Assembly (NCBI GenBank): GCA_009829735.1
Contig: CM020618.1
Location: 13,622,568-13,686,567, forward strand
Source of the DNA: Pyropia yezoensis
Lineage: Eukaryota; Rhodophyta; Bangiophyceae; Bangiales; Bangiaceae
DNA: 64,000 bases
Direction: 5' to 3'
Every line of letters starts with the position of its first letter. The first letter of the stretch is position 1. The translations under genes and the position numbers were made by a program. Positions 13,214 to 64,000 of this stretch are shown here, one piece after another. Under the pieces are notes generated by a model, which ran no database searches, was not told where the DNA came from, and saw only the letters and a list, made by a program, of their open reading frames with translations.

Positions 13214-19733
<6,520 letters not shown>

Positions 19734-32600: not shown

Positions 32601-33331
32601 AACGGCAATGTCGTTGAGCCAGTCGCCCGCTCCACCGACAAGCACATCTGATGAGCTGCGGCAATGCGCGTCTCAGACATGGTACAAGCGTTGGCAAACA
32701 CGTCGCGCAGCGATGGGGTGACGAAAGCAAATGTGTCCGTCGGAGCGTTGTCCTCGTACACAGCACGACAGCGCTCCTCATCACCAACCTCATCGAGGTA
32801 GTCCAACACCTTCGCGCAGAGCGTTTCACCGAGGTCCCCCTCACAGACGACGGGAGAGGCGTGATCCGCAAAAGCAGCACCGTGCAAATCATTAGCGGCA
32901 CGCATCTCTGCTGATCTGACCACATCTGGATGTTCCCCGCTCACACAATCATCAGAGCTGGAGTCACTCGGCGCCGACGCGTCACTGTCGTATGCCGAGG
33001 AGCTTTCTCCTTGCGAGTCCCAGTCGTTCTCTCCCGCACCATCTCCACCGTCACCCCTCTCCTCAGCATCCCCGAAATCCTCCTCCTCTTCGGAATCATC
33101 TCCCCCGCCCCCACCCACCAAATCATGATCGATATCCTCCTCCTCGCCAGTCCCATCTCCACCACCGGCCACCCCATCATCCTCTTCTGAGCTCCCCATG
33201 GCCAAGCTCCTCGCAGTCCCAGCTTCTGCAGCATCATCTGCAAGCCTGTGCCGCTTGCGCAGGTGACGGCCAAGGTGGCAGGGACTAAGAAGACGACCGT
33301 CATCACAACCGTCTACGGTACACCGCTTCAT
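29601..33331 (-). CDS. Plavaka/KDZ-type transposase, copy 2 (intact, four exons)
   Basis: Exons on the minus strand are 33331..32077, 31887..31298, 31067..30895 and 30714..29601. Donors are GTACGT, GTACGC and GTAAGA, acceptors end in CAG, and phases agree, giving 1043 aa without a stop. The N-terminus has a zinc-finger-like CTVDGC...HLGRHLRKRH, then a long acidic Asp/Glu/Ser stretch. The RNase-H-fold core is assembled only after splicing: D410 in LYSDGTVVTSSGGVSAYPLR, D618 in GFDRLH-VMDLGIC and E796 in GVNEALHKFVK. The segments RVMNIVTKEPEWVVVAYMPQ, YVSDQPEKRDVLC and DCTPCM, and the C-terminal YGCERLQW, fit Plavaka family proteins. It would catalyse cut-and-paste movement of the element. It is transcribed divergently from the accessory gene, with 1.17 kb between the starts. 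Confidence 0.85.
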
Positions 33332-34501
33332 ACCAGGAACGCGATCAGCCCCCCCCCCCCCCGTCCCCCCCCTCCTCCCCCTGTGACGTCGGGCTCACGC
33401 CAGTAAAGCGGGGAAGACGAGGATGCGTCGCGTCACACGCCTGGAATGCGGGGAAGACGAGGCTGCGTCGCCCATGGGGTAGAGATGCCGGTAGGTGCGT
33501 CGCCCATGCGGCAGACGTGGAAGAGCCCAGGCGAAGTCACGCGCGTCGCCCGTCAGGCAGACGTGGATGAGCGCCGGCGAAGTCACCATCGCAAGGGACT
33601 CTCGGGATTGATAATGCGCGCCCCACCGACACCACCCACTCAGTACATATATTCGATTTCCAGCATACAGGGCTTAACAAATAAATGGATTCACTCGTCC
33701 ACCTGCACTGCGGAACGCTTCAGCGCATTGGCAGTGCTCCAGAGTTTTCGGGCAAACGCGATCACCCAAATGTTCATGGGCTGTCTTGAAAACTAGCGTG
33801 TGTGCCATGCGATTGGGCTGTGGCGTGGACCACAGAGCATAAACCACGAATCTGTGCGTGAAGGTGCGATTTAGAGATGTTTTTCAGAAGTACGGCGTAC
33901 AACTGTCGGAACGAAATACAAAAATGCAATGTGGCATGATGACGGAATTTTGTTGTTCTGAAAATTGTCTCACAAGTTTCTGTCTTAAACTACAGTACGG
34001 CTGGTGTATGTTGGATAAGATATGAGGGAAGGTCGGGGGGGGGGGGGGGGGGGGGGGGGGAGGAGGAGGAGGGAGGAAGGCCGGGTCGGGTGGTGGAGTT
34101 CGCCACGAGGAGCAGGTGGGTGGGATGGATGCGGGGACGGTGAGCCCGGCCGGCGCAGGTCCCGGCTGTGGTGGCACGGCGGGGACGGTTGTGGCGGCGG
34201 CGGTCATCACGGCCAGCTTGGCATGCTGGCGCCCCGGCATCCACTGTTGTCTTTGTCGCCGTCAACAATTGGGCTCGTGTACGGTGCTTTCAATTGGTGC
34301 TGGCGTCGCCAGATGCGGCCAAATGCAACCCCGTTCCGTGCAGTGCATATGCAGTGTGCATGCATTTTGAGGGCCTGACTATCCTGTGACTGTGGGAGGC
34401 CCGCCGTCGTTGGCGGGCGGACCGCGCATCTCCCCTGGGCGGGCCGTCGGCGCAGCTCCCTAGGGGGTGTGCTGATTTGCGGCTTGCCGTGGTGCACTGC
34501 C
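33332..34501. promoter_or_regulatory. Divergent intergenic region of copy 2
   Basis: Lies between the starts of the transposase (-) and accessory gene (+), so it should hold both promoters. It contains GGGGAAGACGAGG repeats at 33408-33465 (two copies, with a related GCGTCGCCCAT pair) and an AT-rich stretch at 33640-33700. A G homopolymer of about 25 lies at 34036-34060. No TATA box is certain. Confidence 0.45.
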
Positions 34502-40551: not shown

Positions 40552-43500
40552 TCACACAAAGTTATTGGTAAAGAAGCGGTGGTCGCGCCAGTCACATGCA
40601 TCAGAAGCAAAGCTCTTTGGGAAGCGACACACCCCAACACGATCCACCCACTCCTCCCAGTCGTGCTCCACGCAGAGAACGTCAATGATCTCGTGCGAAG
40701 AAATGGCCGCAAGGGTGGGGCGTATCTTACCCTCCCGAACCAGGTGGCACCACTGAAGCCTCTCGCACCCGTATGCCGTGAAAGGACACTCAGGCACGGA
40801 GCTTGCGGTCTCAGCACAGTGCACCACGACCGTCCGACTGAGCGTGCCGTTGTGGGCCGCAATAATCGCGCGTGCCTGCCCCACTCCGACCGTCCCGTCT
40901 TCTGCTCGGTAGCGAACCCAGTCATACCAAGGGCGTCCCTTCAGGTCCGGGGTGGCCCAGACCATGGTGCGATCGCCGCGCGCCGACGGATATCAGCGTC
41001 TGGCAACAACGTCCCGGACTGCGTCGTGATGAAGTCAGATGAAGCGCACTGCAGGGCCTCGTCCAATGTCACCAAGCCAGACGCAGCTGCGAAGTCGGAG
41101 ACGGAGCTGAGCGCCCCACGGGCACGCATACGACTCAATTTGGACCGCCTTCTTGGAAGTCGCTTTTGATGTCTGCCGCTGTCGTGAGAGTCGTACGACG
41201 CTCTGGATCTGCTCCGTGAGCACCATCTGCAATGCCGCGTTATCACGACTCTTGTTCGTGAGTGTAAAAGCCAGCTTGACAAATTTGTGCAGGGCCTCGT
41301 TCACGCCCGTGTTGCCGTCTTGGAGGTTGCCTCGAAGGAAGAACTCGTCCAGTAGATGCGACACTGCGCGATGCAGCTTGGTTGTGTGCGAGGGCCCAAA
41401 GAGGGGCTGGTAGTCGTTCTCAATCCAACGACTCATACGACGACATACCGACTTGGCTTCCGCCCAGGTCTTCGGCCGCACATCAAAGGCGCTCTTCAAT
41501 ATCGCGGCGAGCTCGCAGAGCACCCACGTCAGGAGACGATGATGCTGCCCTCCTGCTCCAGACCGCCCGAACAAGCCCGCAGCTGCGAAAGGCAAGAAGT
41601 GAACCGCCTCACGGTGCTCCTTACCCTTCAAGGTAGCCTGTTTCTCTCCACTCTTGATGAAGTACCTGAGGTGCATTTGTAGAGAATCAAGTGCAAGAAC
41701 CAGCCAGGGCGGTGACTAGAGATCAAATAAAACAGTCAGATATAGTGCATGCATCTCCAATGGAATGTAGCAACATCAAGATACAATCAGATCTCACGCA
41801 GCAGCGTCACAAGGATGAAGCTCTCACGACAAGCAAATCTTACCCCGGGAAGATGGATGGGACACGGTGCGTGCGACTCGCGAACAAGAACCGCTTGTTA
41901 GCGATACGCACAGTCTCACCCGCTGTGCCGTGCAAAAGCTTCTTCGAACCGGCCAGCTCATGGGCAAAGGAATGTACACCTGTTGTCAGCGTTCTACAGA
42001 TGCCGAGGTCCATGACCTGCCAATGGCAAAGGAAGGAGAAAGTGGGGACAGAGCATAAACGAACGCAAGCAGAGGATTGTGCGAGTCAGTACGTGTTACG
42101 GAGAAAGAGTGACGTGCCACCAGCCCTCTTGCAGGAGAGAAATGTAGAGATGATACAATACAGATGCGTGACAATGACATGTACGGCAGCGTCATGCAAG
42201 CAGCATCTGGCAATCACCAAGGAAACACAGGAGTATGGAGCGTACGTGTAGTCGGTCAAACCCGAAGATCTGGTACAGCAGCAGCGGACCAGAGCCGAGT
42301 CCAGCCCAGGCGGCCAGTGCAGGTACAACGCAGTGGATGCTGTTGGCGGTCTCAATCGCATTGATAATGACACCATTGCCCCTTATTCCCCGCATGAGCG
42401 CTCCCTTGAGCTGCAGCTTGACAATCTTGAGCACGTTCCGCTTCTTTGGAGAATTCTTCCTGGAAGGCCGCACCCCGCTCGACGTGGAGCGTGCCATACA
42501 TGGCGTGCAGTCGTACGCGCTGCCGTGACGCTTGAGGCACAAGACGTCCCGCTCTTCTGGCTGGTCCGACACGTAGAGTATGAGTCTCGGAATGATCTTC
42601 ACCACGGCACCGTCCGGCAATGTCATCTCGGCACCGAAATGACTGGCGAGGATGGTATCTCGAAAGACCAGCGCGATGGTGCGTTGGAGGATCTCCGCCC
42701 GAGCCTCTGCAGCCTTTGACAAAGACATTGCCTCGTACCGCGACCGTACTTGGGGCATGTATGCCACGACGACCCATTCTGGTTCCTTGGTCACGATGTT
42801 CATCACTCTCATACGCAGCGGATACGCAGACACACCTGCAAGAAATACAATGGGCCGACACAGCGATGGCCAAATCAACAGTTCGCACGCTCCGTCAGTA
42901 CAAGTTACGACGAGACGTATGGAGAAGCACAAGCTGTGCTGATGACAGCAAATGAGGTCATGATGCGGTCAGTAGTGACACGCAGTGTGGTAGTACGAAA
43001 ATCAATCCCAGTGAGAAAACGTACCACCAGAAGAGGTTACAACCGTCCCATCTGAGTACAGCGCCAGTGCAAGCATCTGTGCGCACAGCCCAAACACGCG
43101 CTTGACGTCCGCCCGCTGAGCTCCGTAGGCATGGCCGTCAAAGAAGTCACGCAGTACGTCTCCGTCTTGCATCACCGGGGAGGCTGGAACAATGTCTCCA
43201 GTGGCAACAGATGGCGTGCAATGCGCACATGCGGACGTGGGCGTCGTAGTCCCGGGATCGACGTCTTGCGAGCTTCTTCCGACTGCATCTGGTCCGTTCT
43301 GGGATCCGTCTTGACTGTAATGGACGCCAGCCGCACAAGCACAATCCTCCGAGCCCCGCTCCCACCTGACGGTTGCGGCCGCCGTAAGACATTCTTGCAC
43401 GACCTTCAGACCCTTGCGAAGGAGGATACGATGGGAACCCACCTTCGTCGTCACGACGGCCTCCATCCACCCCAGCTTCCGCAGCATGCGCCTCTTCTCG

Positions 43501-44279
43501 TTCCGCACTGCAGTCTTGAGCGACGATGGCGTGGGGAACGCGACCTTGAACGGCAATGTCGTTGAGCCAGTCGCCCGCTCCACCGACAAGCACATCTGAT
43601 GAGCTGCGGCAATGCGCGTCTCAGACATGGTACAAGCGTTGGCAAACACGTCGCGCAGCGATGGGGTGACGAAAGCAAATGTGTCCGTCGGAGCGTTGTC
43701 CTCGTACACAGCACGACAGCGCTCCTCATCACCAACCTCATCGAGGTAGTCCAACACCTTCGCGCAGAGCGTTTCACCGAGGTCCCCCTCACAGACGACG
43801 GGAGAGGCGTGATCCGCAAAAGCAGCACCGTGCAAATCATTAGCGGCACGCATCTCTGCTGATCTGACCACATCTGGATGTTCCCCGCTCACACAATCAT
43901 CAGAGCTGGAGTCACTCGGCGCCGACGCGTCACTGTCGTATGCCGAGGAGCTTTCTCCTTGCGAGTCCCAGTCGTTCTCTCCCGCACCATCTCCACCGTC
44001 ACCCCTCTCCTCAGCATCCCCGAAATCCTCCTCCTCTTCGGAATCATCTCCCCCGCCCCCACCCACCAAATCATGATCGATATCCTCCTCCTCGCCAGTC
44101 CCATCTCCACCACCGGCCACCCCATCATCCTCTTCTGAGCTCCCCATGGCCAAGCTCCTCGCAGTCCCAGCTTCTGCAGCATCATCTGCAAGCCTGTGCC
44201 GCTTGCGCAGGTGACGGCCAAGGTGGCAGGGACTAAGAAGACGACCGTCATCACAACCGTCTACGGTACACCGCTTCAT
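40552..44279 (-). CDS. Plavaka/KDZ-type transposase, copy 3 (two offsetting frameshifts)
   Basis: Exons 44279..43025, 42835..42246, 42016..41844 and 41665..40552 have the same lengths as in copy 2, and splice sites, zinc finger and all three catalytic motifs are kept. In the last exon one base is missing near 40983 and one is extra near 41146. About 54 residues between them are therefore out of frame, after the catalytic Glu. Sequence error or recent decay are both possible. Few other substitutions separate it from copy 2. Confidence 0.8.
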
Positions 44280-44981
44280 ACCAGGAACGCGATCAGCCCC
44301 CCCCCCCCCCGTCCCCCCCCTCCTCCCCCTGTGGCGTCGGGCTCACGCCAGTAAAGCGGGGAAGACGAGGATGCGTCGCGTCACACGCCTGGAATGCGGG
44401 GAAGACGAGGCTGCGTCGCCCATGGGGTAGAGATGCCGGTAGGTGCGTCGCCCATGCGGCAGACGTGGAAGAGCCCAGGCGAAGTCACGCGCGTCGCCCG
44501 TCAGGCAGACGTGGATGAGCGCCGGCGAAGTCACCATCGCAAGGGACTCTCGGGATTGATAATGCGCGCCCCACCGACACCACCCACTCAGTACATATAT
44601 TCGATTTCCAGCATACAGGGCTTAACAAATAAATGGATTCACTCGTCCACCTGCACTGCGGAACGCTTCAGCGCATTGGCAGTGCTCCAGAGTTTTCGGG
44701 CAAACGCGATCACCCAAATGTTCATGGGCTGTCTTGAAAACTAGCGTGTGTGCCATGCGATTGGGCTGTGGCGTGGACCACAGAGCATAAACCACGAATC
44801 TGTGCGTGAAGGTGCGATTTAGAGATGTTTTTCAGAAGTACGGCGTACAACTGTCGGAACGAAATACAAAAATGCAATGTGGCATGATGACGGAATTTTG
44901 TAGTTCTGAAAATTGTCTCACAAGTTTCTGTCTTAAACTACAGTACGGCTGGTGTATGTTGGATAAGATATGAGGGAAGGT

Positions 44982-45014
<33 letters not shown>

Positions 45015-45454
45015 GGAGGAGGAGGGAGGAAGGCCGGGTCGGGTGGTGGAGTTCGCCACGAGGAGCAGGTGGGTGGGATGGATGCGGGGACGGTGAGCCC
45101 GGCCGGCGCAGGTCCCGGCTGTGGTGGCACGGCGGGGACGGTTGTGGCGGCGGCGGTCATCACGGCCAGCTTGGCATGCTGGCGCCCCGGCATCCACTGT
45201 TGTCTTTGTCGCCGTCAACAATTGGGCTCGTGTACGGTGCTTTCAATTGGTGCTGGCGTCGCCAGATGCGGCCAAATGCAACCCCGTTCCGTGCAGTGCA
45301 TATGCAGTGTGCATGCATTTTGAGGGCCTGACTATCCTGTGACTGTGGGAGGCCCGCCGTCGTTGGCGGGCGGACCGCGCATCTCCCCTGGGCGGGCCGT
45401 CGGCGCAGCTCCCTAGGGGGTGTGCTGATTTGCGGCTTGCCGTGGTGCACTGCC
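44280..45454. promoter_or_regulatory. Divergent intergenic region of copy 3
   Basis: Same content as in copy 2. The G homopolymer at 44984-45013 is about 30 long, against about 25 in copy 2. Confidence 0.45.
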
Positions 45455-48400: not shown

Positions 48401-50790
48401 CACATTGAGGCCCCATCTGGATTACCGTATCGCTTCTCAAACGACGTGTGTCCCCGCCCCCCTTACATTCTCATGATACGTACGACGCAGTCATCTGCAG
48501 AGGATCCTGCACCTGCACCGAAGCGTCCAAAGTACGCTCCACAAGGCAAGAAGCGGCGGCGCTCGATGAGGGAGACATTGCTCCTGGAGCTGGCACCTCC
48601 CGGCGACAGCGACGAGGATGGCGGGGACGACTCGGACGGGTCCGCCGCGGCGGCCCTAGAAGAGCGGGACGCTGCGCAGGCGCGCGCCATGGAGGCCGCT
48701 GTGAAAGCCGCCGATGCCGCCAGGAAGGGAGTCCCGAGGGCGCCCGTTAGGCGGAAGGGGATGACCAAGGCTGCGCCCCAGGCTGCGCCGCCGCCTTCCA
48801 CGAAGGGCAAAGGCAAGGGACCGGCTGCACCGAAGAAGGGCAAGAAACTGGCTCTTCTTGCCACGAACGCGTCGCGGACGGGTGAGGGGAGCAAGCCGAC
48901 GAGGGCCCAAGGTGAGTTGGCCGGGCCGGCCCTGACGCTCGCCGTCCGCCGGGAGGTGACCGCGCGCACCATCGCGCTCTTTAGCAATCCGCAGGACGCC
49001 GACGACGTCTTCTTGTGCAACGACGACGCGCGGGCCATGTACATTGCCAGCATCATGGCGGTGGCGCCGGCCAGCATGGAGCGGGCGGAAGAGTTGGCGC
49101 GTCAGGTGGCGGCGGTCAACGCGCGGCCGAAGAAGGAGGAGACCAGCAGCGCGACGCGCACGACGGACATTCTGGGGCAATGTGCCCAGGCGCGGTCCAC
49201 GGCGTACCACAGCTTGTGCACTTGGGTGTGGTCGTCGTGGACCGCTATGGTGGAGTACGAGTCGACGGAGGTGGACTACAGGGGCAACGACGAGAGCAAG
49301 CGCACGGCAGCCATCGGGACGTGGTGGCTGAAGGGGAGGCGTTACCTCAACACCAAGAGCGGGCGCGCTGCGCTGTACAACTTGTGCGCCGCGTACATCA
49401 ATCGGTACGGTATGGAAGACGCCTACACGGACCAGTACCACAAGGGGCGTCGGGTGCTCAGCCTGTTGCTCGCCGTCATTGCCCTGATCGTCGCGAAGGT
49501 ATGGACCGTGCCCCTATGTTGTGTGTGTGGGTGTGTGTGTGGATGTGTGTGTGTCGTGTGAACTTTGTCTCTGTCGTTGTATATCATGTCATTCGGCACC
49601 ATCTGGCGCCATGCGTCATTGGACTGCATCTTACTCTGCATTGGGCTGCATCTGACCTGTCTTGGGCCCTCTGTTTTTCTTGGTGACTGCATCTCTCTGG
49701 CATGTGGTGTGATTGTGACTGCTGCAGATTCGGTCCCAGCTTCTCCTCGACGTCTACGGACTGTCGGCATTGAAGAAGATGATGGGAGGCCTGAACCCGT
49801 CGCACCGCGCGTACTTCTGTGAGGAGCTCACCGCGCTGCATGCCGCGGCTGTCAAGCCCGGCTGCCAGTGGGTCAAGCTGTTTGCCACCGACGTGAAGGA
49901 ATCCTTCTGCGCGGCGGTGAAGGACCCAGACTCTACGCTGGGCACCACCACGAAGGTGGACAAGATCGGGCGGCGCACGCTTTACCACGGGGTCCAGTCC
50001 TCCTTGCAAGCCATCCTGAACCTGCTGAACGACGATAGCGACTCGGAGGAGTCTGACTTGTCGTCCGACGATGACGTCGTCCACGTCGTCATCCCGGTGA
50101 CGGCGACAGCGCCGTCATCTCGCGACGCGAAGCGCCGGGAGCGCCTCATGTCGGTGGCTCGGGTGGGGGGGAAGGGGGCAGCGGGGATGCCGGCAGTCAA
50201 GGCCGAGATCGTTGAACCCGGCGTTGCTCATGACTTCTCCTCGTGGTATTCGGTTTCTTCGGACGACTCCTACGAGCAGGAGTCGGACGACTCCTACGTG
50301 AGGTTTGACGAGGGGGCCATGGAGGACGCCGAGTTTCTGGACTCGGAGCTGAGGATGGAGGACCTGAAGGACCTCGACGCGTCGCACGATCATTTTGAGT
50401 ATAGGTACACGAAGTTTGGTGGGTCTGATGGTGAGGAGGCAGGGGGTGGAGAGGACGGAGAAGCGGCGGCGGAGGACGAGGACGAGGAGGTGGCGGAGGA
50501 GGAGGAGGACGGGGCGGAGGATAAGGGGGAGGAGGAGGAGGAGGGGGAGGAGGAGGAGGAGGGGGATGGGGAGGGGGAGAAGGAGGAGGAGGCGGAGGCG
50601 GAGGAGGAGGAGGAGGCGGACGAGGTAGAGGAGGAGAAGGAGGCGGAAGAGGAGGAGGGGAGGGGGAGGAGGATGAGGAGGGGCAGGAGGAGGGGGAGGA
50701 GGAGGAGGGGGAGGAGGAAAGGAGGAGGGGGAGGAGGAGGAGGAGGGCGAGGAGAAGGGCGAGGAGACGGAGGGTGACGGAGAGGCTTAA
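45455..50790 (+). CDS. Transposon accessory protein of unknown function, copy 3
   Basis: Exons are 45455..47991, 48221..48283, 48491..49498 and 49728..50790. Exon 3 (1008 bases) is fully open. The last intron joins K to IRSQLLLDVYGLSALKKMM in frame, so the core is intact here. The 39-bp VNTR has grown to about 11 units. Single-G losses at about 46077, 46113, 46446 and 46800 shift the Ala-rich exon. A homopolymer change also shifts the frame at the end of the Glu tail. All of these are in G runs or low complexity. A few substitutions (for example C-to-A in ACGTACGACGCAG at intron 2's end) mark this copy. Confidence 0.65.
45704..46130 (+). repeat. 39-bp coding VNTR, about 11 units (copy 3)
   Basis: Same 13-residue unit as at 34751-34945. 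Variants (AAAVT, AAAVA, AAAAA, VVAAAA) are arranged in a higher-order pattern of two to three units, which suggests block duplication. The last two units carry single-base losses. Confidence 0.9.
46447..47245 (+). repeat. 267-bp coding tandem repeat (copy 3)
   Basis: Counterpart of 35270-36060, with about 3 units. The middle unit lacks one G (46800), so spacing is 266 then 267. Confidence 0.85.
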
Positions 50791-51924
50791 GAGAGCGACG
50801 CCGGCGAGAGCAGCAAGGGCACCACGTGACTCGCGTCGGTCTGTACTTGCTTCGTGCCCGCACCCGGCTTGGTGAGATACCACCCATGTGTACGCATGGC
50901 CTACATTTGGTGTGCGAAGGACTGCATTAGACGTCGTTTGGATGCATGATGCGATCACAATGTGGTTGAGGAGAACCCAGTTTGTTGATCAATAGCGGTC
51001 GACGGTCGGTAGCGTGGTTGAGAGCCTGAGCTGGTGATGAAGGCGGGGGGGGGGGGGGGGGGCGGGGGGGGGGGGGGGGCAAGCTCGATGGGGGGAGGGG
51101 GTGAAGTAGGGGTGTGGAGGGGGGGTACCGGCGGGTCCTGCCCCTGCATCCGCCGGATCCGCCGCCGCTGCTGCCCACGCCGGTTGCGGTTGCGGTCGTG
51201 GCGGCCTACCATGGCAGGGGGGGGGGGAGGCGCGACGTCCAGGCGGCGGTGTCGGAGGCGGCGTGGCGGAGGCGGCGTGGCGGAGGCGGCGTGGCGGAGG
51301 CGGCCGCGGCAGCCGGTTCGGCGGCGGCAGCGGCGGCGGGGGTATAGGACGCAGTGGCGGCGGCTGTGGCGAGGGTGTTGGACGCAGTGGCCGTGGCGGC
51401 GGTGGCGACGGCAGCTGGGCTGCGGTGGCGACGGTTGCGGTGGTGGTCGGGGCGGCGCCGCTGCCCAGGTTGGTAAACGGCGCCCCCGTGTCGACGGCGG
51501 CAAGGGGCACCACACTGGCCGGTGGGGGGGGGGGGGGGGGGGGTCAGGGAGGCGGTCGGGGCCGGGCGGCGGCGGCCTTTCCGGCTGGGCCACCTGCTTC
51601 GCCCACGTCTGTCCCCCCACTGACGGCAGCGGACCGCCGGGGGGGTGGGGCGCGGCGGCGGCCTGCCGCGGGGCGGGGGGGCGGGCGGCGGCGGCCTTTC
51701 CGGCTGGCGCACCGACCGGCGAGAAAGGGAGCGGGGCGACGCGCTCGAGAGGCTGGGATTGCGGCAAGGTATGGCCGACGGCCGCCCCGCTGCCCACCGC
51801 CATCCTTTGTGGTGGCGGTGCCACTAGCGGCGGCGGCGACGGCCGCGCTCTTGCCCTTCGCACCTCCCTTTGCTCTCCGCTCGCTTGTGCCCCGCCCCGC
51901 CCTCCTCTTTCTCCCCCACCTTCC

Positions 51925-54352: not shown

Positions 54353-55001
54353 CGAGGATGCCGGCCAGTCGGCCACGTCCCCACGCTTCGCCTGTTGGTA
54401 TTGTATCAGTCGTAGACTTCTTTGCGCGTTGACGGGCGGCCAAGGCGGCACAGAGAGCATATGGCAAGGTCGGTGTGGGTGGTTGCCCACGGTCCTCGCG
54501 GGTGTGGCGGGCAAGGTTGTTCCGGTGGCGGCCCGTGGTGTGGCCGGAGCTCCGATGAGTGCGTGGAGGCCGCTCGGCCGGTAGTGGGTCACAATCGTAG
54601 CCCACGGTAGACCAACATGGTCGATGGTCGGTAGACCAAGACGATACTCGCATCACGTCGCCAGTGTAAGCGTGCTTTGTGGACCATGATGGTCAAACGA
54701 CCTTGTCCGCGACCCTCAAAAAGGTCGTTCCGCTAAAGATGTGACGACGCCGGAGGTCGCGAAGAAGACGCCGAGCTTGGTGCCTCTTGTGCACCGACGT
54801 CACGGTGAGGACGGTAGTCCTATCGACGAAGACGACGGTGACGTCGACGGGATCGAACACGGGATCTTCAGGTTAAAATTCGTACGCGATGCCAATAGGC
54901 AACAACGTCAGTATTGACTGCTGCGAGAGTTTTAGCAACCATGTTCATCATGCTCAGCCTAGATGGCGGTGCGTTGAGACAGGTGCCACTTGGCTAGCCC
55001 G
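54353..55001. other. Spacer, no gene recognised
   Basis: Non-coding. Some inverted repeats are present: AACGACCTT...AAGGTCGTT at about 54687-54728, AGGAC-GGTA-GTCCT near 54812, and TGCC-AATA-GGCA near 54888. They resemble the hairpin style of the element at 61772-64000. I found no match here to the LTR at 61422-61771. Confidence 0.4.
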
Positions 55002-55619
55002 TCAGTCTTGTTCGTGCTTGAGTCTTGTGCGTTTGCACTGGAACAGGAAGGCAGTCTTTGCCCATTCCGTTGTCGTTGCGTTAGACTTGAGCAGCGGCAT
55101 GAGTATTTTATACTCTTGACAGAGCCCCTTGGCTTTTGCGAACCATGTGGCGTGTTCCCAACGTGGGGTGACCAGGAGTGTGTCCTTTGGACTGGTTTGT
55201 ATCTCTGCGACCACCTGCGCGAGAGTGTGGGTGGGGGGTATCCGAAGGCACATGCCTTGTGAGTGGGGTTGCTCGTGGGGAGTGACGTGCTTCTCGGGTT
55301 GGTAACTCAACCGGCCATAGTGCCTTGTGAGTTCCGGGAGTTCTCCGAGTGGTCCCCATGTGGGGAAGGTGAAGTTCCGACATGCCCAAGGCAATGTTGA
55401 CTTCATGCAGTACACAGGAATGTTCTCATGAACAGAGCGGTCTGCGTTGTCCCATTGGACATTAGCCTGTTCCACCCCCCATGGGTCGACGTAGACCGCG
55501 AGGATGTTGGGCTGCCAAATAGTGGCGCTAGCGCAAGTGAGCGCGGCAAGTCCAGTAGCCAAGGCAACCTTGGTGGTCGGCTTGCGAGGTTTTCGCCACG
55601 TGTATCCAAGTATTTCTAC
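55002..55619 (-). CDS. C-terminal extension after the gypsy chromodomain
   Basis: The pol frame stays open for about 200 residues beyond the chromodomain. It has a hydrophobic helix (KVALATGLAALTCASATIW) and AVYVDPWG. A segment LRIPPTHTLAQVVAEI is followed by TLLVTPRWEHATWF, and the end is CKRTRLKHEQD at 55002. The PP...LLVTPRW...W pattern recalls the Dam-like domain at the end of some retroelement polyproteins such as DIRS; this is a weak, unsearched resemblance. An envelope-like or unrelated host fusion is also possible. Confidence 0.45.
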   Translation of the reverse strand, partial: VEILGYTWRKPRKPTTKVALATGLAALTCASATIWQPNILAVYVDPWGVEQANVQWDNADRSVHENIPVYCMKSTLPWACRNFTFPTWGPLGELPELTRHYGRLSYQPEKHVTPHEQPHSQGMCLRIPPTHTLAQVVAEIQTSPKDTLLVTPRWEHATWFAKAKGLCQEYKILMPLLKSNATTTEWAKTAFLFQCKRTRLKHEQD

Positions 55620-57478
55620 CTTCTTGGACCTCAAATGTCGAATGACTAAGTTACGTGGCAGGTTCTCAACCGGTTCCCACATGTCGTCCTTGGGGGTATA
55701 GTCATACTATCGCACCTTGAATTCGTAGGAATCACCGGTCTTACGATGAGACACGAGCTTGTCGATGACGTACTCGTCGTGGACAGTCGGCTCGGGTCGT
55801 GGTTTGTCAAACCCATCGAGCAGTGGGTGCGGTGCGGACTCTTCCGCGTCGTCCGGGCGTGGTGCCGCAGTGGCGTGGTCGCTGTTGATGCGCTTCTCAA
55901 TTCCATCGACGTCGATGACAAACGTTGACTCGTCGGCGTCGACGACGATGAACTGTCCAATGGCCTTGCTCTGCAGCTTATTAGCTCGCTGGTGGTTTGT
56001 CGTGTAGACATAATCACCGATCTTGATCTTACGGTTGCGATCCCCGATGTGGGCATCGAAGTTACGCTTGTAACGTTGTTGCGTCTTTGTAAGCGCTCTG
56101 ACAACGGCAGGTATCTGCAGTCTCAGTCGGGCCATGAACTCTCGCTTCCTGGCGAGTGGGGAGCCGTCACTCAGCGTGCCGCGCGGGGTGAGGGGTGTGC
56201 CAGGTGGCAAGTTGCGGACTGACAAGTTCGGCACGCGACGTGGGATGACCAGTTCGAATGGTGTCAGTCCTGTGAACCGATGTGGTTGGCTGTTGTAAGC
56301 CATAGAGAGAACGGGCAGAAGCTCGTCCCAGCGCTTGGGGTCCTCCGTGACGTAGTGTCGAAGTTGGGTAGCAATCGCACGATTGTACCTTTCCACTTGA
56401 CCATTGGTCTGCGGGTGGTACGCGGTAGTGCGCACCGTCTCAACACCGAGTACCTTCATCACAGCGATGAAGAAGTTCGACATGAACTGTGGGCCTTGAT
56501 CGGATAAGATCTTGTCCGGGGGTCCATAGCACGCGATCCAGTGCTCAATAACGGCGGCGGATGAGACCGAGATGGCAGTGATGGTCTTCAGTGCTCTGCA
56601 CTTGGTGAGCTTGGCGAACCGGTCGGTAATGACCAAGATGAAGCGGTTTCCGCTCTTACTCGCAGGCAACGGGCCAAGGATGTCAATTGACAACTCGGTC
56701 AATGGTTCCGAAGCTGGGAACAGGGTGAGTGGTGTCGTATGCTTTCGCATCGCCAACCGGTTTTGTGCACAAGTGGTGCAGTTGGTGATAGTGCTGTGGA
56801 TATCGGATATCATGGACGGACAGTAGAACTTTCTTCTCATGGTAAAGTACATCTTGTTCATGCCCGGGTGGGCGGCGGAGGTCGACATGTGTTGGAGCTT
56901 CAAGATGTTTTCTTGTTGAGACTTTGGTATGACCAGTTGGTTTCCATAGGGTGTCTTGCGACGCAGCGCGTTGTCGTCGTCAATGATGAACGACTTGTGA
57001 CCTCCCTTGGCGATGCTGTCCATGATTGACTTGCAGAAATCATCCGATTGCTGCTTGTCTATGACATCGTAGTAGTCGGCGGGTGTCGGGTCGGACTTAC
57101 CCGTGTACCGATGGGTTTGAACGCCGTGTGCCGTCTGGGCAACCGCCAGGCATGGAATGTCATCGTTGATGGGTTCAGTGACTGCGTTGTTGTCCGCTCT
57201 GGACAGAAAGTCGGGCAAGTGGTGACTGGCACCAGGCTTGTACTTGAGCTCGAAGTCAAACTCCGCTAGGCGCATACGCCATCGCATTAGACGCCCGCTT
57301 GAATCGGCAGTGCTGTATATCCAGCTAAGGCTCTGGTGGTCCGAGCGGATCACAAAGCGTTGACCTTCGAGGAAGTGCCTCAATTTAGGACAGCCCACAC
57401 GATGCCTAGGCATTCTCTCTCCGTTGTGGAGTAGTTGAGCTCTACTGTGTTGAGTGCTCAGCTCCAATAACCAACTGG
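55620..57478 (-). pseudogene. RNase H end, integrase and chromodomain of gypsy pol
   Basis: After a single-base shift near 57383 the RNase H continues (FVIRSDHQSLSWI, then FELKYKPGASHHLPDFLSRAD). The integrase has its HHCC zinc site (HMSTSAAHPG...CTTCAQ). The DDE core is SIDILGPLP, LSDQGPQF and YHPQTNGQVERYN. A GPY/F-like SH3 part precedes a chromodomain (DEYVIDKLVSHRKTGDSYEF...DDMWEPVENLP). A TAG at 55707-55709 replaces the usual Trp codon in the middle of the chromodomain. Confidence 0.85.
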
Positions 57479-59454
57479 TTATAGGTCGCCGTCATCGTCC
57501 GATTGGAGCAGCGTGCACCCAAGTTGATACGCACTTGCATCGACATCCAGTGTCAGTTGACGTCCGGCCTTTGGTAAGGCTAAGATGAGAGGGTGCACCA
57601 GGGCGTCACGGAGGTCTTCGAAGGCGGCCTGCTCCTCATCTGAGGGTGGCGCCAAGTCCGGTGGGACTTCCTTCTTTGTCAACGCGTTGAGCGGTCGTGC
57701 TCGCTCAGTGAAGTCGACTGCAAATCGTCGGTAGATGTTGCACATGCCGAGGAAACTCTTGAGTTGGGTCTTGGTCTCGGGGAATGTCGCGTGACGCAGC
57801 GCCTCCGTGTTCTTGTTAAGAATGTGGGGTTTGCCAGGCGTTATGCTGTGGCCGAGGTACTCCACCTCGTTGGAGAACCACTTGCACTTCTCAAGATTGA
57901 GGGTAACGCCCGCTTCCCTAAGTCGGGTGAGGACGGTGTCTACATCATGGATGTGCTGTTTGGCGGTTGCCGAAAATATGATGACGTCGTCTAAGTAGAC
58001 TAGGCAAACTTGCCACTTGAGTCCGGACAGGATAATATCCAGGGCTCGTTTGAAAGTTGCCGGCGCGTTGGTCAAGCCGAATGGCATTGTTGTCCAGTCG
58101 AAGTTGCCGTAGTGCGTCGAGAAGGCCGTCTTTTCTTGGTCCTCCTTTCGCAGGGGTACTTGCCAATACCCGGCAGTGCAGTCGAGAGACGTGAAGACCT
58201 TGGCGTCTCCGAGGGAGTCAAGGCAGTCCTCCATACGAGGAAGTGGGTGCGCATCCTTCTTGGTGACGCTTTTCAATCGTCGATAATCGACGCAGAACCG
58301 GGCCTTCCCGTTCTTCTTCGGGACAATGACGACGGGACTGGCCCAGTCACTGTGGCTGGGTTTGATAACCTTGAGCTTCAACATCTTGTTGATCTGGTCG
58401 ACGATGATCGCCCGTTTGAACGCACCGGCTCGGTGTGGTTGAGCTCGTATGTGGGCGACCCCTGGTGGGGTGACGATGGCATGCTCAGTAGCGTGTATGA
58501 CTCCGAGAGTCCCGTCCCACATCTTGCCGTGTTTGGCTAGCATCGTCTTGATTTGCGCATGCAAATACTCTGGCGCATCTTGCAGGTCAATGTCGTCGAG
58601 TGACGGTTTTGTTTGCTCGTCCTTCGGCGCCGCCGGGTCGTCTTTCTCCGTTGGAGCCGTGAGTACCTGACCGAGGTGTTGTTCGGCGAACGCCACGATG
58701 CTGCCCTTGCAGATGATGGTCATGTCTGGCCCAAAGTTGCACACCTTCACCAGGAATGATTCGTTCGGGTTGACTGTTGCAACTCCTCGGGCAATTGCCA
58801 TTGACTTGTGTCTGCAAAGACGTGCGTTTGGCTGCAGCGTAACCAGGCCGGGTACTTCGCATCTGACCATGATCCATTGTTCGGTCTTGCCGTTGATTCG
58901 TGTTTGCTTACTCGCGCGGACCTTGGATGATCCTTCGGACCATTGTGGTTCCGTAACATTGTTGTACTGGATGCCCGAGATGGGAGAGTGAGCCGTCGAA
59001 CGATCGTTCGAGGATTGCCAAACGATACGTTCGAGTCGGGGCCAGATTGACTCCACGTGCTTGTCCACAAACTCGGTGCCGAGGATGCATTTGACGGACA
59101 GGTTTGGGTTAACGTAGAAACGTTCAAAGGCTTGAACCCCCCCGGTATCAATAAACAGGTGGATGCCTTGTGGCGCGTTGATCGTTTGCCCATTGGCATC
59201 AACCATGTGCGGGGCATTGTGCAAAGTTGTCGCGTGCTCACGCCAATGTGGCGGCAAGACATCCGGTCGGATGAGGTTGACACCTGCCCCGGTGTCAAGT
59301 ATGGGCCTTAAGCTTCGCGTATTCGCTAGCTCAGTGCCGATACAGGCTGCGATCTCATAGTGCCGATGGGCTTTGCTTAGGGTCTTGGTGATCTTACGTC
59401 TTGCGAGTCGTTTGGGCAAGGGTGCGTCGGGGACACTGCCCGCCGGTCCTCGAC
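57479..59454 (-). pseudogene. Protease, reverse transcriptase and RNase H start of gypsy pol
   Basis: The aspartic protease site is PILDTGAGVNLI. The RT is complete, with KARFCVDYRRLKSVT, FTSLDCTAGYWQVPL, FGLTNAPATF and the catalytic CLVYLDDVIIFS. The connection reads SFLGMCNIYRRF. RNase H begins LTLDVDASAYQLGCTLLQ and then meets TAA at 57479-57481 and TGA at 57458-57460. The frame differs from gag, which is usual for a frameshift-expressed pol. Confidence 0.85.
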
Positions 59455-61201
59455 TTACTCGTTTTTTGAGTCAGCCTTGCCGTCACCAACGTCATCGCTC
59501 TCTTCCTCGTCCGAGTCTGGGAGGACTTCGTTCTCGACGATAGCGTTGATTTGGTCGCGGACCGAGTCGTCAATGAGTGCCATCACTCTTGCTTGGCGTC
59601 GGTCACGACGGGGCTTTGGGCACTGAGAGGCAAAGTGCCCAGGCTCGTTACAGTTGTAACAAATGTCGGTAGCCCGCGGCCTCGGGGTGTCTGTTCGAGC
59701 GGCCTTAATAGGCGCATAAGGTCGGTCGACCGTCCGAGTGGGGGGGGGTGTTGCAGCGCTCGAGTCGATTCGACTTACCTTGATGAGGGGCGGGCGACTG
59801 GCCTTGATTGACTGACGCAGTCGGTTAGCGCCCTCCCAGAACCCTTGGGCAACCGCAACCGTGTCTGCCATGGGGCGATCTGGGAACTGGCTGTCCAGAA
59901 CACGGACGTTCGGCTTGATCAGGTCGGAAAGACCGTTGATGAAAACATCTTTCACATCTTGAGCGGAGAAGAGGCCACAGAGGCGGTCGCACGACGCTTC
60001 CACGCGGGTGCCGAACGTGCGTGGGACCTCCGTGTCCAGTTGGGTCATCGTAATGATGTCATGGTACGCCGTTGCCAAAGCGGCATGAGTTGCGTATTTC
60101 TTGAGAAGCCAGTTGACTCCTTCACCATACGTGGTAAGTTCGTAGTGCTTGCCACGAACAATCGTGTTGACCGCGCTAGCGAATGAGCGCTTAGCGGCTC
60201 CCGCCAGCCGGAAGGCAATGAGTGGGAACGCCCGACCGTGGGTCAACCCTGCGGCATCGCAGGCTCTGCGGAACGTCGTGAGGAAGGTGAAGACACCCAG
60301 GGGGTCTCCACCGTTGAAGGTCTCTTGTCCTTGGAACGCGCCGTCGAGACGCTTGTTCATCTTGCTTGTATCTCTCACCATAGATGGTGTATACTTAGTG
60401 CTCCGTCGGAGAAGGAAGTAGGTCCGGTAGTCCAAGAGTGACTTAAAGCGGCTGTTGCCGGGTCTAATGACCATCTTGCGATCGCCCAACTCCGTGGGTC
60501 CGGAGTGGGGCGCGGGTCGGCGCCGGTGCCTGCGCACGTCGACGGTGTGCGTCCGAGCTATCCGTAGTGGACTCCGTGCTTGACGGGCTCGGGCTTGACT
60601 GTGGGGTGGGGTCCCGGCCACCGTCATCAGTTTCGTCCGAAGACGAGAAAGACGAGGATGATGACTTGTCGGATGACAGCCCATCATCAGAGGATGATGC
60701 GTCTCCCTCCCGTGCGTCATGAAGCTTAGTCGTGGCCTTTGCTGTAAGGTCCTCGACCTGGCCCTCAAGCGCGCGGATCCGACGATTCTTCGACTGAAGA
60801 TTGCCAATGGGCAGAATTGTCTGAGAGGCCGCTTGGGTCTTCGGCTTCACGTCCATCTTGCCCATCAGCTGTCGGTTCGACGTCGTCCGTTGACGAAACG
60901 TCTCATTTGAGGGTGGCTTTCTCAGCTCCTCAAGAGTAGTTGCCAGTCTGGTGTTAGACTCCTCCAACGCCTTGTTGGTAACTTCTTGGGCCTCAAGACG
61001 GTCGCGAAGTGTCTCCACCACCGCCTTCAAGCTCTCCAACTTAAAGGTAGTGACATCCTCCAAGTCAGGGTTGGGGGGGGTAACTTCAGGGGCCGGAGGG
61101 CGGCTTGTTCCGCTCCCTCCGCCTGGTGGCGTGTAACCCGAAGGCAGGGCGATCCCCTTACCCTTCGAGCGCCGAGCGCCATCAGGAGCTCCCGAAGCCA
61201 T
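59455..61201 (-). pseudogene. Gag of the gypsy element (frameshifted)
   Basis: Structural protein that packages the element RNA. The first frame (61201-60464) gives a Pro/Gly-rich start, a predicted coiled coil (ESLKAVVETLRDRLEAQEV) and a Ser/Asp linker. The capsid-like part (LLDYRTYFLLRR, TYGEGVNWLLKKYAT) and the CCHC knuckle CYNCNEPGHFASQC continue in a second frame to 59455. The shift is near 60500. The knuckle is complete. Confidence 0.8.
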
Positions 61202-61403
61202 GTCGCAACCCGGCGTAACGTGTGTCGGCGCGCCCCGCGTTACCGACCAAAAGGTCCCCGTGGCATGACGCCCAGCGTCGTCCAGCCTTCACCAATCGGT
61301 GTAGTCGCCCAGCAACACCCGATCGAGAGATCGTCACACACGCTGCCACAAGGCACCAAGGAACACGTACGAGCGTACGGCAGCACCGCACACAAGCAGT
61401 AAT

Positions 61404-61771: not shown

Positions 61772-61844
61772 GGGGGGCTACTAGCCAAACAATACCGGAA
61801 TTCGGTACAAAGGGCGGATATGCTACAGTTCCTCCGTACCTTCG

Positions 61845-62177
61845 TTGTACGGGGGGAAGGCCAAAGTTGGCGCTGATGCGGGGAGGGAGCGTTTAAATCG
61901 CTACCCCAGCCTGGCTTGTAATAGCCATGAGCATTCTACGCGCCGCTGTCCCGACCTTAGTATCGAGACGCGGGCTAAGTTCGAAAAAGCCCGTAAGGAG
62001 CGCGCTTGGGTTGAGGGCCGTACCCCGCGGGGTACGGCGGGGACAGCGCAGCCCGTAGCGGTTGTCACTGAGGGGGGGCCTTCTGGCGCCCCTAAAGGGG
62101 GGCCTAGCCCCCACGGGAATACCAAAGAGTCAGAGGACTCTTCATCTGAGCATACCCCCTCCTCAAAAAACGATTAA
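61845..62177 (+). pseudogene. Gag C-terminal fragment of the second gypsy element
   Basis: The open frame holds a zinc knuckle with spacing C-x2-C-x4-H-x4-C, but the first Cys is Ser (SLACNSHEHSTRRC). A charged tail ends SSKND. The frame has no good start codon and the N-terminal gag is missing. A perfect 20-bp palindrome overlaps it at 62018-62037. Confidence 0.7.
62018..62037. repeat. Perfect 20-bp palindrome
   Basis: CCGTACCCCGCGGGGTACGG is self-complementary over all 20 bases, within the gag fragment. It is one of about 30 inverted repeats in this element. Confidence 0.95.
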
Positions 62178-64000
62178 GGGGGAGGCCTGATGAGGAATAT
62201 TCCTCCCCCGGGGAAGAGGATGTCGTGTTGAAACGCATCTTACCCCGACCGGTCACCACCCACGGCTTATCAATTAGCCGTACGGCTTTTTATTACTAAG
62301 GGATATGAATGGGCGACGAGGGCCATCCTCGATACCGGGAGTGGCCCTTCACTCGTCCGGAAGCAGGCATTACCTCGGGGGTTCCCTATGGAACCCCTGG
62401 GAGACCTGGAAACCTTAAGATTTTATGATGTGAACGGGGGATGGCTCCCCATAGCGGGAAGCGTCACCCTGGGGGTCTGTGTGGGAAAACAAATCTCATA
62501 CATATCCTTTGGCGTGGTTCCGAATATGTGCGTCCCTGTTATCCTGGGGAACACACTCGTGGACCACGAAACTAAGAGTATTAACTCGGAGGACCAGACG
62601 GTCACCCTCTTATCGGGGGAGACCGTCCCCATCCTGCGAGGGGTTCAGAAGAACCCCCGCCGCAAGCCGAACAGGGAGGCGGTGTGTGCGTGTCCCCGGG
62701 GGGGGAACGCCCGCCTGGTCCTTACCCACAAGACGCTTACGCGTCCTGGTACGATTGCGCACGTTCAAGTTCGTGGCAACTTTCAAGGCCACGGATACAT
62801 CCGTGGCAAGAGCACATTGCACTCCATTCATGGAGCGCAACTGGCCGAGGGGCCCGCCACGCTTAAGCCTGGCCAGCCTACTACGGTACAGGTTATGAAT
62901 CCGACTAAGCGGCCGGTACGCTTACGTGCCGGCATGGCCATAGGACACATTACTGTGTTTGATGGCGTCAGCCAAGAGGCTTTCACCGAGGAGTTGCAGG
63001 ATCCGGAGCCGAAACCGGCTCCGAAAGAATCCTCCCTCGCCCCAGGTATAGACCTGGGGTAGGTGCCCGAAGGCCTACGAGCTAAGCTCACGGCACTTAT
63101 AGAGAGATATAATTCTCTCTGGGATGGCACCCTCGGGACTATCAAAGAGACAGTACACCGTATCCGGCTTAAGCCAGGAGCGGTCCCCGTCCGACAACAT
63201 CCCTATAAGTCTGGTCCTAGGACCCAACTAGTGGAAGAGGAGCAAGTCCGACGAATGGACTCGCTCGGGGTCATAGAACCCTCCCACGGGGAATGGGCTA
63301 GCCCCGTGGTAATCGTCCCCAAGCCTGGGGGCGGCAAACGATTTTGCATCGACTACCGTCGTCTTAATGAGATGACGGTGAAGGATGCATATCCTATCCC
63401 GCGTATGGACGAGTGCTTAGATTCACTCGGGAACGCCACCGTCTTTTCGACGTTGGATTGTAATGCTGGCTACTGGCAAATACCGGTAGCCAAGGAGGAC
63501 CGGCCGTTAACGGCCTTTATGTGCCACTCTGGCACTTGGCAGTGCAAGCGCCTCCCTTTTGGGTTGTGCAACGCACCAGCCACCTTTCAGCGTGCCATGG
63601 ACATGACCCTGGCAGGCGTGAAGTGGCAGATATGCCTCGTCTACTTGGATGACGTTATTGTCTTTTCCAAGTCGGCGGAGGATCATTTAGAGCACCTTGA
63701 GACGGTGCTCTCCCTCCTCAAGGCCCATGGGGTTTCCCTCAAGGCCAACAAGAGCCACCTTTTTCAAGAGGAAGTCGCCTACCTCGGCCATGTCATAAGA
63801 CCTGGCCGCGTTCTCGTATGCGGGAAAAATACGAGAGCGCTATGAGGGTTGCAATACCCTCGTACACAAACCCAGATGAAACGTTTTCTGGGGATGTGCG
63901 GCGTCTATCGGCGCTTCGTACGGGACTTCGCCAAGGTAGCGAAGCCCCTAACCGCGCTGACGAGTACCAAGCTTCCTACGAAGCTATCTTCCCCCACAGA
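62178..64000 (+). pseudogene. Protease and reverse transcriptase of the second gypsy element (partial)
   Basis: The protease site ILDTGSGPSLV is at about 62321-62353. A Gly/Thr-rich region follows, and the RT has FCIDYRRLNEMTVKDAYPIPR, FSTLDCNAGYWQIPV, FGLCNAPATFQR and CLVYLDDVIVFS. The connection KRFLGMCGVYRRF follows. One frame runs throughout but contains TAG at 63060-63062, between protease and RT, and TGA at 63843-63845, after RT. Each stop abuts a perfect hairpin. Readthrough or C-to-T decay could explain them. RNase H and integrase lie beyond the window. Confidence 0.85.
63040..63062 (+). other. Hairpin immediately before in-frame TAG
   Basis: CCCCAGGT-ATAG-ACCTGGGG (63040-63059) is a perfect 8-bp stem with a 4-base loop. 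The TAG stop follows with no spacer. Confidence 0.9.

Follow-up and report, generated by a model that had tools for sequence, protein, structure and literature searches.

Genome-wide RNA structure has so far been studied in RNA viruses. In RNA genomes with genome-scale ordered RNA structure (GORS), pairing extends throughout the genome, coding sequence included, and the folding energy lies beyond that of randomised controls; one GORS study sets the threshold at 3% and lists values from -3.6 up to 16.0% among 18 transcripts (PMC3950689). The yeast retrotransposon Ty3 has a SHAPE (selective 2'-hydroxyl acylation analyzed by primer extension) map of its RNA, described as a mosaic of stable and dynamic regions (PMC11381356). 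A search of open-licence papers, not an exhaustive one, found no report of ordered folding along the whole length of a long terminal repeat (LTR) retrotransposon. Here we describe a Ty3/gypsy element of the red alga Pyropia yezoensis that is densely filled with short perfect hairpins. It lies at the 3' end of a 64,000-nt stretch (positions 13,622,568 to 13,686,567 of contig CM020618.1, forward strand; hereafter the window) on a contig of 43.6 Mb, in an assembly of 107 Mb. Our analysis indicates that local RNA folding has probably been under selection along the whole length of the Ty3/gypsy elements of this alga, most strongly in the family of this copy (hereafter the target family).

Stems were counted as perfect Watson-Crick arms with a loop of 0-12 nt. 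Positions 61790-64000 contained 32 stems of at least 6 bp, 14 of at least 7 bp and 8 of at least 8 bp; 6.49, 1.48 and 0.40, respectively, were expected from 200 dinucleotide shuffles, whose maxima were 13, 5 and 2. An earlier note on this DNA, made from the letters alone, had counted about 30 short-loop inverted repeats in 2.2 kb, which agrees with our count. It had also put the chance expectation for stems of at least 8 bp under one, correctly, and the number seen at about ten, which is eight by our definition. The five stems and five palindromes quoted there were located at, or within one base of, the positions given; the largest, a perfect palindrome of 22 bp (stem 11, loop 0), occupies 62017-62038 rather than 62018-62037.

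The other palindromes without a loop had stems of 7 bp (62192-62205, 63502-63515) or 6 bp (62276-62287, 63213-63224). Hairpins with a 4-nt loop had stems of 8 bp (62378-62397, 63004-63023, 63040-63059) or 7 bp (62125-62142, 62640-62657). In addition, a 9-bp stem with a 2-nt loop (62788-62807), 8-bp stems with loops of 10 nt (63284-63309), 7 nt (63689-63711) and 9 nt (63812-63836, the 8-bp form being listed in the window copy only), and 7-bp stems with loops of 6 nt (63101-63120) and 12 nt (63467-63492) were found, all given on the + strand. A loop of 4 nt was the most enriched (18 vs. 1.2, 12 shuffles); lengths of 0 and 2 nt were also in excess, and lengths of 3 and 5 nt were not. Perfect stems, measured in stretches other than the one downstream of pol, had a maximum length of 11 bp in the window copy, of 12 bp in one genomic copy and, with long loops, of 13 bp in another gypsy family (L048). 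In 1-kb steps of the window, stems of at least 6 bp numbered 14 vs. 3.0 in one step of the element and 16 vs. 2.7 in the other (3 vs. 0.2 and 5 vs. 0.2 at 8 bp or more), the next highest ratios for stems of at least 6 bp being those of 55001-56000, in a neighbouring gypsy element (9 vs. 2.3), and 50001-51000 (5 vs. 1.5). With respect to stems of at least 8 bp, steps 2001-3000 (3 vs. 0.2) and 50001-51000 (3 vs. 0.0) equalled one of the element steps.

The window copy (61828-64000, + strand) comprises the 5' part of the element, with the end of gag, protease (PR) and reverse transcriptase (RT); in blastn comparison with 30 genomic copies its homology starts at 61828 and continues beyond the window end. 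RT (63063-63842, + strand) was identified by PF00078 (RVT_1, E 3.1e-37). It is preceded by an open stretch at 62232-63059 (+ strand) with a DTG-like motif, spotted by eye, which would mark a putative aspartic protease; no Pfam match was obtained for 62232-63062, and no Pfam protease match for the pol frame of genomic copy L002. The same comparison revealed an internal deletion near 62250. The in-frame stops at 63060 and 63843 were present in one of the 30 copies, so the window copy must be counted as dead, in a family that also has open copies. Querying the genome with RT gave 40 scored matches at 91-100% identity, from 1112 first-look candidates, and 30 copies were fetched.

In L002, LTRs of 648 bp that are 99.07% identical flank an element of about 10.3 kb in total, and the open pol frame carries RVT_1 (409-569), RT_RNaseH (665-764), Integrase_H2C2 (885-941) and rve (958-1056), with a weak Chromo match at its end (E 2.2e-4, 21.5 bits vs. 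a cut-off of 25.1), the domain expected there in the chromovirus branch of Ty3/gypsy. Judged by these LTRs and by the RT-RNase H-integrase order in pol, the target family is a Ty3/gypsy LTR retrotransposon, and it has in common with other such elements its LTRs and gag, followed by one pol frame that encodes RT, RNase H and integrase. Two scans of viral contigs revealed no relatives; the window had no Rfam match at gathering score and no tRNA. One candidate diverged relative, with another motif spelling, was located at C1:8805313 among 16 of the 33 matches.

The excess of stems was present in all 30 genomic copies fetched, a comparison that the earlier note had recommended. The 2.05-kb part of the copies that contains RT held 19-31 stems of at least 6 bp vs. 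4.1-7.7 and the remaining 1.5 kb held 14-25 vs. 3.7-5.9 (means of 15 shuffles), with 4-11 and 0-9 stems of at least 8 bp, respectively; this two-part count was made in contig orientation, and the parts differ in side between copies. In L002 the excess covers the LTRs (8 vs. 3), the 5' region and gag, PR, RT-RNase H, integrase and a 3-kb stretch after pol; the 1.45 kb of flanking DNA upstream shows none (5 vs. 5.3). The stretch of about 3 kb from the end of pol to the 3' LTR of L002 (L032:3104-6142) contains 17 stems of at least 8 bp vs. 1.1 expected; it has open frames of 277 and 359 aa without a Pfam match, and its length varies among copies.

Two short arms often match by chance when DNA is GC-rich, and raised counts were also seen in a few more 1-kb steps, some of them GC-rich (e.g., 14001-15000 with 33 vs. 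17). This would fit an excess produced by composition, codon usage, repeats or the stem counting itself. We regard such an artefact as very improbable. The excess outlasts dinucleotide shuffling, codon shuffling and codon shuffling that also constrains the bases across codon borders, none of which reproduced the target counts. Under codon shuffle PR (62232-63059) had 11 stems of at least 6 bp vs. 2.2 (60 shuffles, maximum 6) and RT had 10 vs. 3.1 (60 shuffles, maximum 7); with codon borders constrained the values were 11 vs. 3.2 and 10 vs. 3.0. In frames of other gypsy families the counts under codon shuffle were 63 vs. 20.4 (L048), 32 vs. 10.2 (L047) and 25 vs. 12.7 (L051), and two actin and two copia frames remained at the codon-shuffled level. 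Thus, the stem excess does not depend on protein or codon usage.

Folding energy, an independent measure, agrees with the stem counts. It was taken in 100-nt windows against codon-shuffled sequence, with one script for all sequences. PR and RT of the window copy fold 27% and 30% beyond codon-shuffled controls (26.9% and 30.1%), and the pol frame of L002 (3255 nt) 32.9%. Genes of single-stranded RNA coliphages gave a similar excess of 21-35%: 24.7% for MS2 mat, 34.6% for MS2 rep, 21.2% for GA rep, 28.1% for MX1 rep, 30.9% for M11 rep and 27.5% for Qbeta rep. Other gypsy frames reached 17.4% (L070), 12.6% (L047), 11.1% (L036) and 9.6% (L051); actin frames gave 0.1% and -7.7%, and copia frames 3.3%, 1.4% and -0.7%. 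The likeness to RNA genomes with ordered structure had been put forward in the earlier note, which named the lack of a folding excess over codon- and dinucleotide-preserving shuffles as grounds for refutation; the excess persists under both kinds of shuffle and is within the phage range.

The target family thus resembles GORS genomes in its folding beyond codon shuffles in pol (26.9-32.9%) and in a stem excess that covers LTR, gag, pol and the 3' region. It would work like them but is not classed among them, since it is an LTR retrotransposon and not a positive-strand RNA virus genome; moreover, its 27-33% comes from another shuffle and 100-nt windows and is not directly comparable with the published values. 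Unlike the mosaic described for yeast Ty3 RNA (PMC11381356), the hairpins predicted here from the sequence are dense throughout. Long stems set the target apart from the coliphages: 12 stems of at least 8 bp vs. 0.97 in 3255 nt, compared with 1-2 (0.23-0.42 expected) in phage genes 1.2-1.8 kb long. A likeness is the longest perfect stem, 11 bp in MS2 and MX1.

The hairpin excess is not unique to the target family. The earlier note, sampling by eye, had not seen it in the neighbouring gypsy element and knew of no described gypsy family like this one; neither a neighbour free of the excess nor its confinement to this family was supported. The neighbour (55002-61288, - strand), which belongs to another lineage (RT 52% aa identity), had 39 stems of at least 6 bp vs. 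17.0 (100 shuffles, maximum 27), a weaker excess of short stems with no clear one of long stems (3 vs. 1.2 at 8 bp or more). Gypsy lineages sampled in the genome, the neighbour included, showed the excess to a varying degree, from 1.4- to 5-fold. The L048 family had 84 vs. 21.4 stems of at least 6 bp and 19 vs. 1.4 of at least 8 bp. At the 6-bp threshold L045-L047 had 49-51 vs. 13.7-14.9, L036-L044 had 29-36 vs. 11.4-13.9, L051 had 45 vs. 18, L049 had 16 vs. 6.5, L050 had just 9 vs. 6.3, and L066-L076 showed a 2.3- to 4.5-fold excess. Four copia loci, analysed out of six fetched, had 1.1- to 1.3-fold stems. Eight actin-family stretches had 0.4- to 1.6-fold, except one of 423 nt (8 vs. 3.6), and the seven loci surrounding actin stretches 0.7- to 1.7-fold, with L056 highest (30 vs. 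18). This near absence of excess in copia and actin also argues against an artefact of counting.

As a foreign control we used 40 gypsy loci found in prokaryote assemblies, which were taken as contaminants. In all they held 596 stems vs. 471 expected, the highest ratio being 2.95-fold, and in 10 of the 40 the count was reached by none of 60 shuffles. Codon-level analysis covered 35 of these loci (L096 and L101 were dropped for frames shorter than 250 codons, and L100, L106 and L110 for N in the frame); the folding z was below -2 in 13 frames and below -4 in 4. The target (33%, z -20.2) was reached by no foreign frame, and the L048 family stood at 14% (z -7.6). Gypsy elements of other organisms therefore have a milder form, the target being the extreme of those measured. 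Two loci on prokaryote-assembly contigs, L094 (17%, z -8.5) and L095 (21%, z -6.5), match or exceed the L048 family and are candidates for the phenomenon in other organisms.

The earlier note had left open whether the coding sequence was selected or mutated for pairing. Mutation could act through template switching at imperfect inverted repeats, by the host polymerase or the element's own reverse transcriptase, which would perfect hairpins without any selection. Homogenisation of arms and inversion of loops by this route are described for yeast genes and, as in the target, leave short perfect inverted repeats in coding DNA (PMC8604942). The perfection of the stems, without a sense-strand preference for G-U, and the extension of the window stem at 63812-63836 by two changes in one arm would fit such an origin. 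Neither of the two marks of this process, arm repair over several bases above chance and inverted loops, was seen in the target copies. Among 2228 substitutions of the 30 copies relative to the column majority, repair of one mismatch made 131 stems vs. 144.8 (sd 14.7, 20 random placements), that is, at the random rate; repair of two or more mismatches made 11 vs. 15.0 (sd 5.3, 20 placements), and loop inversions numbered 0 of 1395. This test covers recent change only, mostly post-insertion, and for recent change template switching was rejected as the origin. The little or no excess in copia and actin loci of the same genome also speaks against it, and template switching alone leaves a depletion of stem-breaking changes unexplained. 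We consider it an unlikely source of the hairpins.

Such a depletion, as much as two-fold, was found between sister gypsy families. In open-frame stretches, stem breaks were compared with random placements of the changes matched for base change, codon position and synonymy. The six directions among L045, L047 and L075 gave 13 vs. 24.0, 10 vs. 21.9, 6 vs. 10.9, 5 vs. 10.4, 6 vs. 10.4 and 10 vs. 13.1 breaks; those among L048, L051 and L066 gave 15 vs. 19.7, 21 vs. 23.4 and 14 vs. 19.5; those with L070 gave 14 vs. 16.6, 15 vs. 17.7, 17 vs. 18.5 and 15 vs. 16.6. P was at most 0.02 in 9 of these 13 directions and 0.055-0.11 in 4; the directions within one pair are interdependent, L066 is a near copy of L048, and all P values were derived by random placement or by rotation, with no phylogeny behind them. 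Stem breaks in Qbeta-type phage pairs were likewise depleted, and eight copia directions were at or near the null (lowest P 0.05). Created stems exceeded random 2.1- to 3.5-fold in the seven diverged gypsy directions; among L045, L047 and L075, the close set with six directions, the factor was 1.2 to 2.3, with one direction at P 0.04. Phage pairs showed a similar behaviour. In 7 of 13 directed gypsy comparisons, those of closer pairs, fourfold-degenerate sites were less diverged inside stems than outside: 0.074 vs. 0.259 (rotation p 0.003), 0.316 vs. 0.537 (p 0.008) and five others at p 0.018-0.075. Of the two origins considered, these tests favour selection, and those for mutation by template switching were negative.

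Individual hairpins are short-lived on this scale. None of the 40 target stems is intact in L048, nor is any of the 33 L048 stems in the target; pairing at homologous places of the two was 0.359 and 0.443 vs. 0.26-0.27 in a shifted control, largely from unchanged pairs. In four directed gypsy comparisons (70-77% identity) 17 of 44 double changes in stems were Watson-Crick, with shares of 0.31-0.50; three such comparisons of Qbeta-type phages (71-72% identity) gave 43 of 54, with shares of 0.75-0.89. Between the target and L047, L048 and L051 (50-52% identity) the share was 0.24-0.42, and it was 0 of 2 for L047/L039. Thus, the Qbeta-type phages keep their stems by compensation and the gypsy families tested do not, so that compensatory preservation of particular stems, for which the earlier note had suggested a test, was not supported; nor is compensation apparent between MS2 and GA, at 57% identity (3 of 20 and 4 of 11). 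The four gypsy comparisons at 70-77% identity cover sister families. Within the target copies, 26 of 29 apparent compensatory rows were set aside as lying in or near blocks misaligned into unrelated sequence (L003, L004, L007, L023, L025 and L027), which leaves 3 (L001, L016 and L025). Hence single hairpins turn over, with the amount of local pairing kept.

A number of results count against selection on RNA folding. The low share of compensated double changes is one. The selection tests cover sister gypsy families, and the activity of the element is suggested by open frames and, for L002, by the 99% identical LTRs. Breaks were somewhat fewer than random in the dead target copies as well: common stems of the 30 copies were broken 227 times, with 263.4 expected (sd 12.9; P 0.005). 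This deficit of 14% may stem from replication-era changes or from the choice of common stems. The excess of created stems partly restates the overall excess and is mostly non-significant among L045, L047 and L075. Lower silent divergence in stems was absent from the four L070 comparisons and two L075/L045 ones, and it was clear in 1 of 10 phage directions (p 0.036), so it does not mark folded genomes in general. Four actin directions were near the null save one pair with few stems, which was also depleted (2 vs. 4.2 and 1 vs. 3.6). The frame of L042, of the neighbour lineage, had 9 stems vs. 4.4 under codon shuffle, with the shuffle maximum also at 9. Finally, G-T mismatches were not preferred over A-C ones, A-C being the more enriched in 8 of 9 gypsy rows.

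This last result bears on the molecule under selection, because A-C mismatches are G-T on the opposite strand. Selection could have acted on DNA or cDNA, through cruciforms or hairpins of single-stranded cDNA, and the nearly equal folding of the two target strands (32.9% and 30.4%) would also be in keeping with this. Nearly the same symmetry is seen in RNA phages, which pass through no DNA stage; their G-T and A-C mismatches are about even, not rich in G-T, so the mismatch comparison fails to discriminate the strand. The neighbour lineage folds better on its sense strand (12.6 vs. 6.4% in L047, 11.1 vs. 4.3% in L036). Selection on DNA or cDNA is therefore improbable in our estimate, and the folded molecule would be the RNA of the element, for which the hairpins are predicted.

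Under selection on RNA folding, the genomic RNA of the element would fold locally on itself over its whole length, with stems that turn over fast, and the selection seen between sister families would have shaped the target family too. Folding would keep the RNA compact and closed to strand pairing, the likeliest partners being host small RNAs or antisense transcripts. In the stretches measured, perfect stems do not exceed 13 bp, a length that would suit Dicer poorly. A single Piwi-family match was obtained in the genome, and of three RNase III matches two share a frame of 643 aa, which makes escape from silencing conceivable as the purpose. Avoidance of pairing is favoured on the grounds that the target strands fold about equally, the stems are short for Dicer, and the Piwi and RNase III matches are present. 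We put forward escape from silencing only tentatively.

Packaging and compaction are close rivals as the purpose of the folding. An element whose RNA is selected for packaging, compaction or control of reverse transcription, and not for escape, would share the selection part of the explanation above and is a serious possibility, if short of an even chance. Folding is known for the RNAs of retroelements, that of yeast Ty3 having a well-folded core (PMC11381356), and the excess in the target is alike in LTR, gag and pol. Known packaging signals are local, and the complete turnover of stems between the target and L048 (40 of 40 and 33 of 33) is hard to reconcile with a packaging role. Returning to silencing escape, an arms race with host RNA silencing may perhaps have driven gypsy RNA to coliphage-level structure with stems held Dicer-short, copia having taken another way; we hold this doubtful as it stands. 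If true, it would give a retrotransposon an RNA genome of the ordered kind. If genome-wide RNA structure shapes the coding sequences of retrotransposons as well, a folding signal ignored by annotation and molecular dating would be present in their codon choice, in the evolution of their silent sites and in estimates of their age, and the function of ordered RNA structure would become testable in a non-viral element that is inherited, for which gypsy and copia, sharing a nucleus, offer a ready contrast.

Several additional features were recorded. The 1655-aa frame of L048 ends in a chromodomain-like part, by likeness to that of the target, followed by a match to a Dam-type N6-adenine methyltransferase (L048:4142-4966, + strand; PF05869, E 8.3e-7, 29.3 bits, cut-off 28.1). 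Gypsy elements are not known to carry a Dam-type methyltransferase domain, and a search of open-licence papers gave nothing fitting. The neighbouring gypsy has a C-terminal end (55005-55706, - strand) that is distantly related to the one in L048 (29% identity, E 1e-17); the target family aligns in a chromodomain-like piece of 41 residues alone (E 1e-5). At about 40.0-40.5 kb the window has a run of unknown or masked bases, which appear as X in the frames. A long direct duplication was also found in the window, its two parts (31096-34313 and 42044-45266) lying about 10.95 kb apart, with 100% and 97% identity over two 300-nt stretches and several open frames that recur in both.

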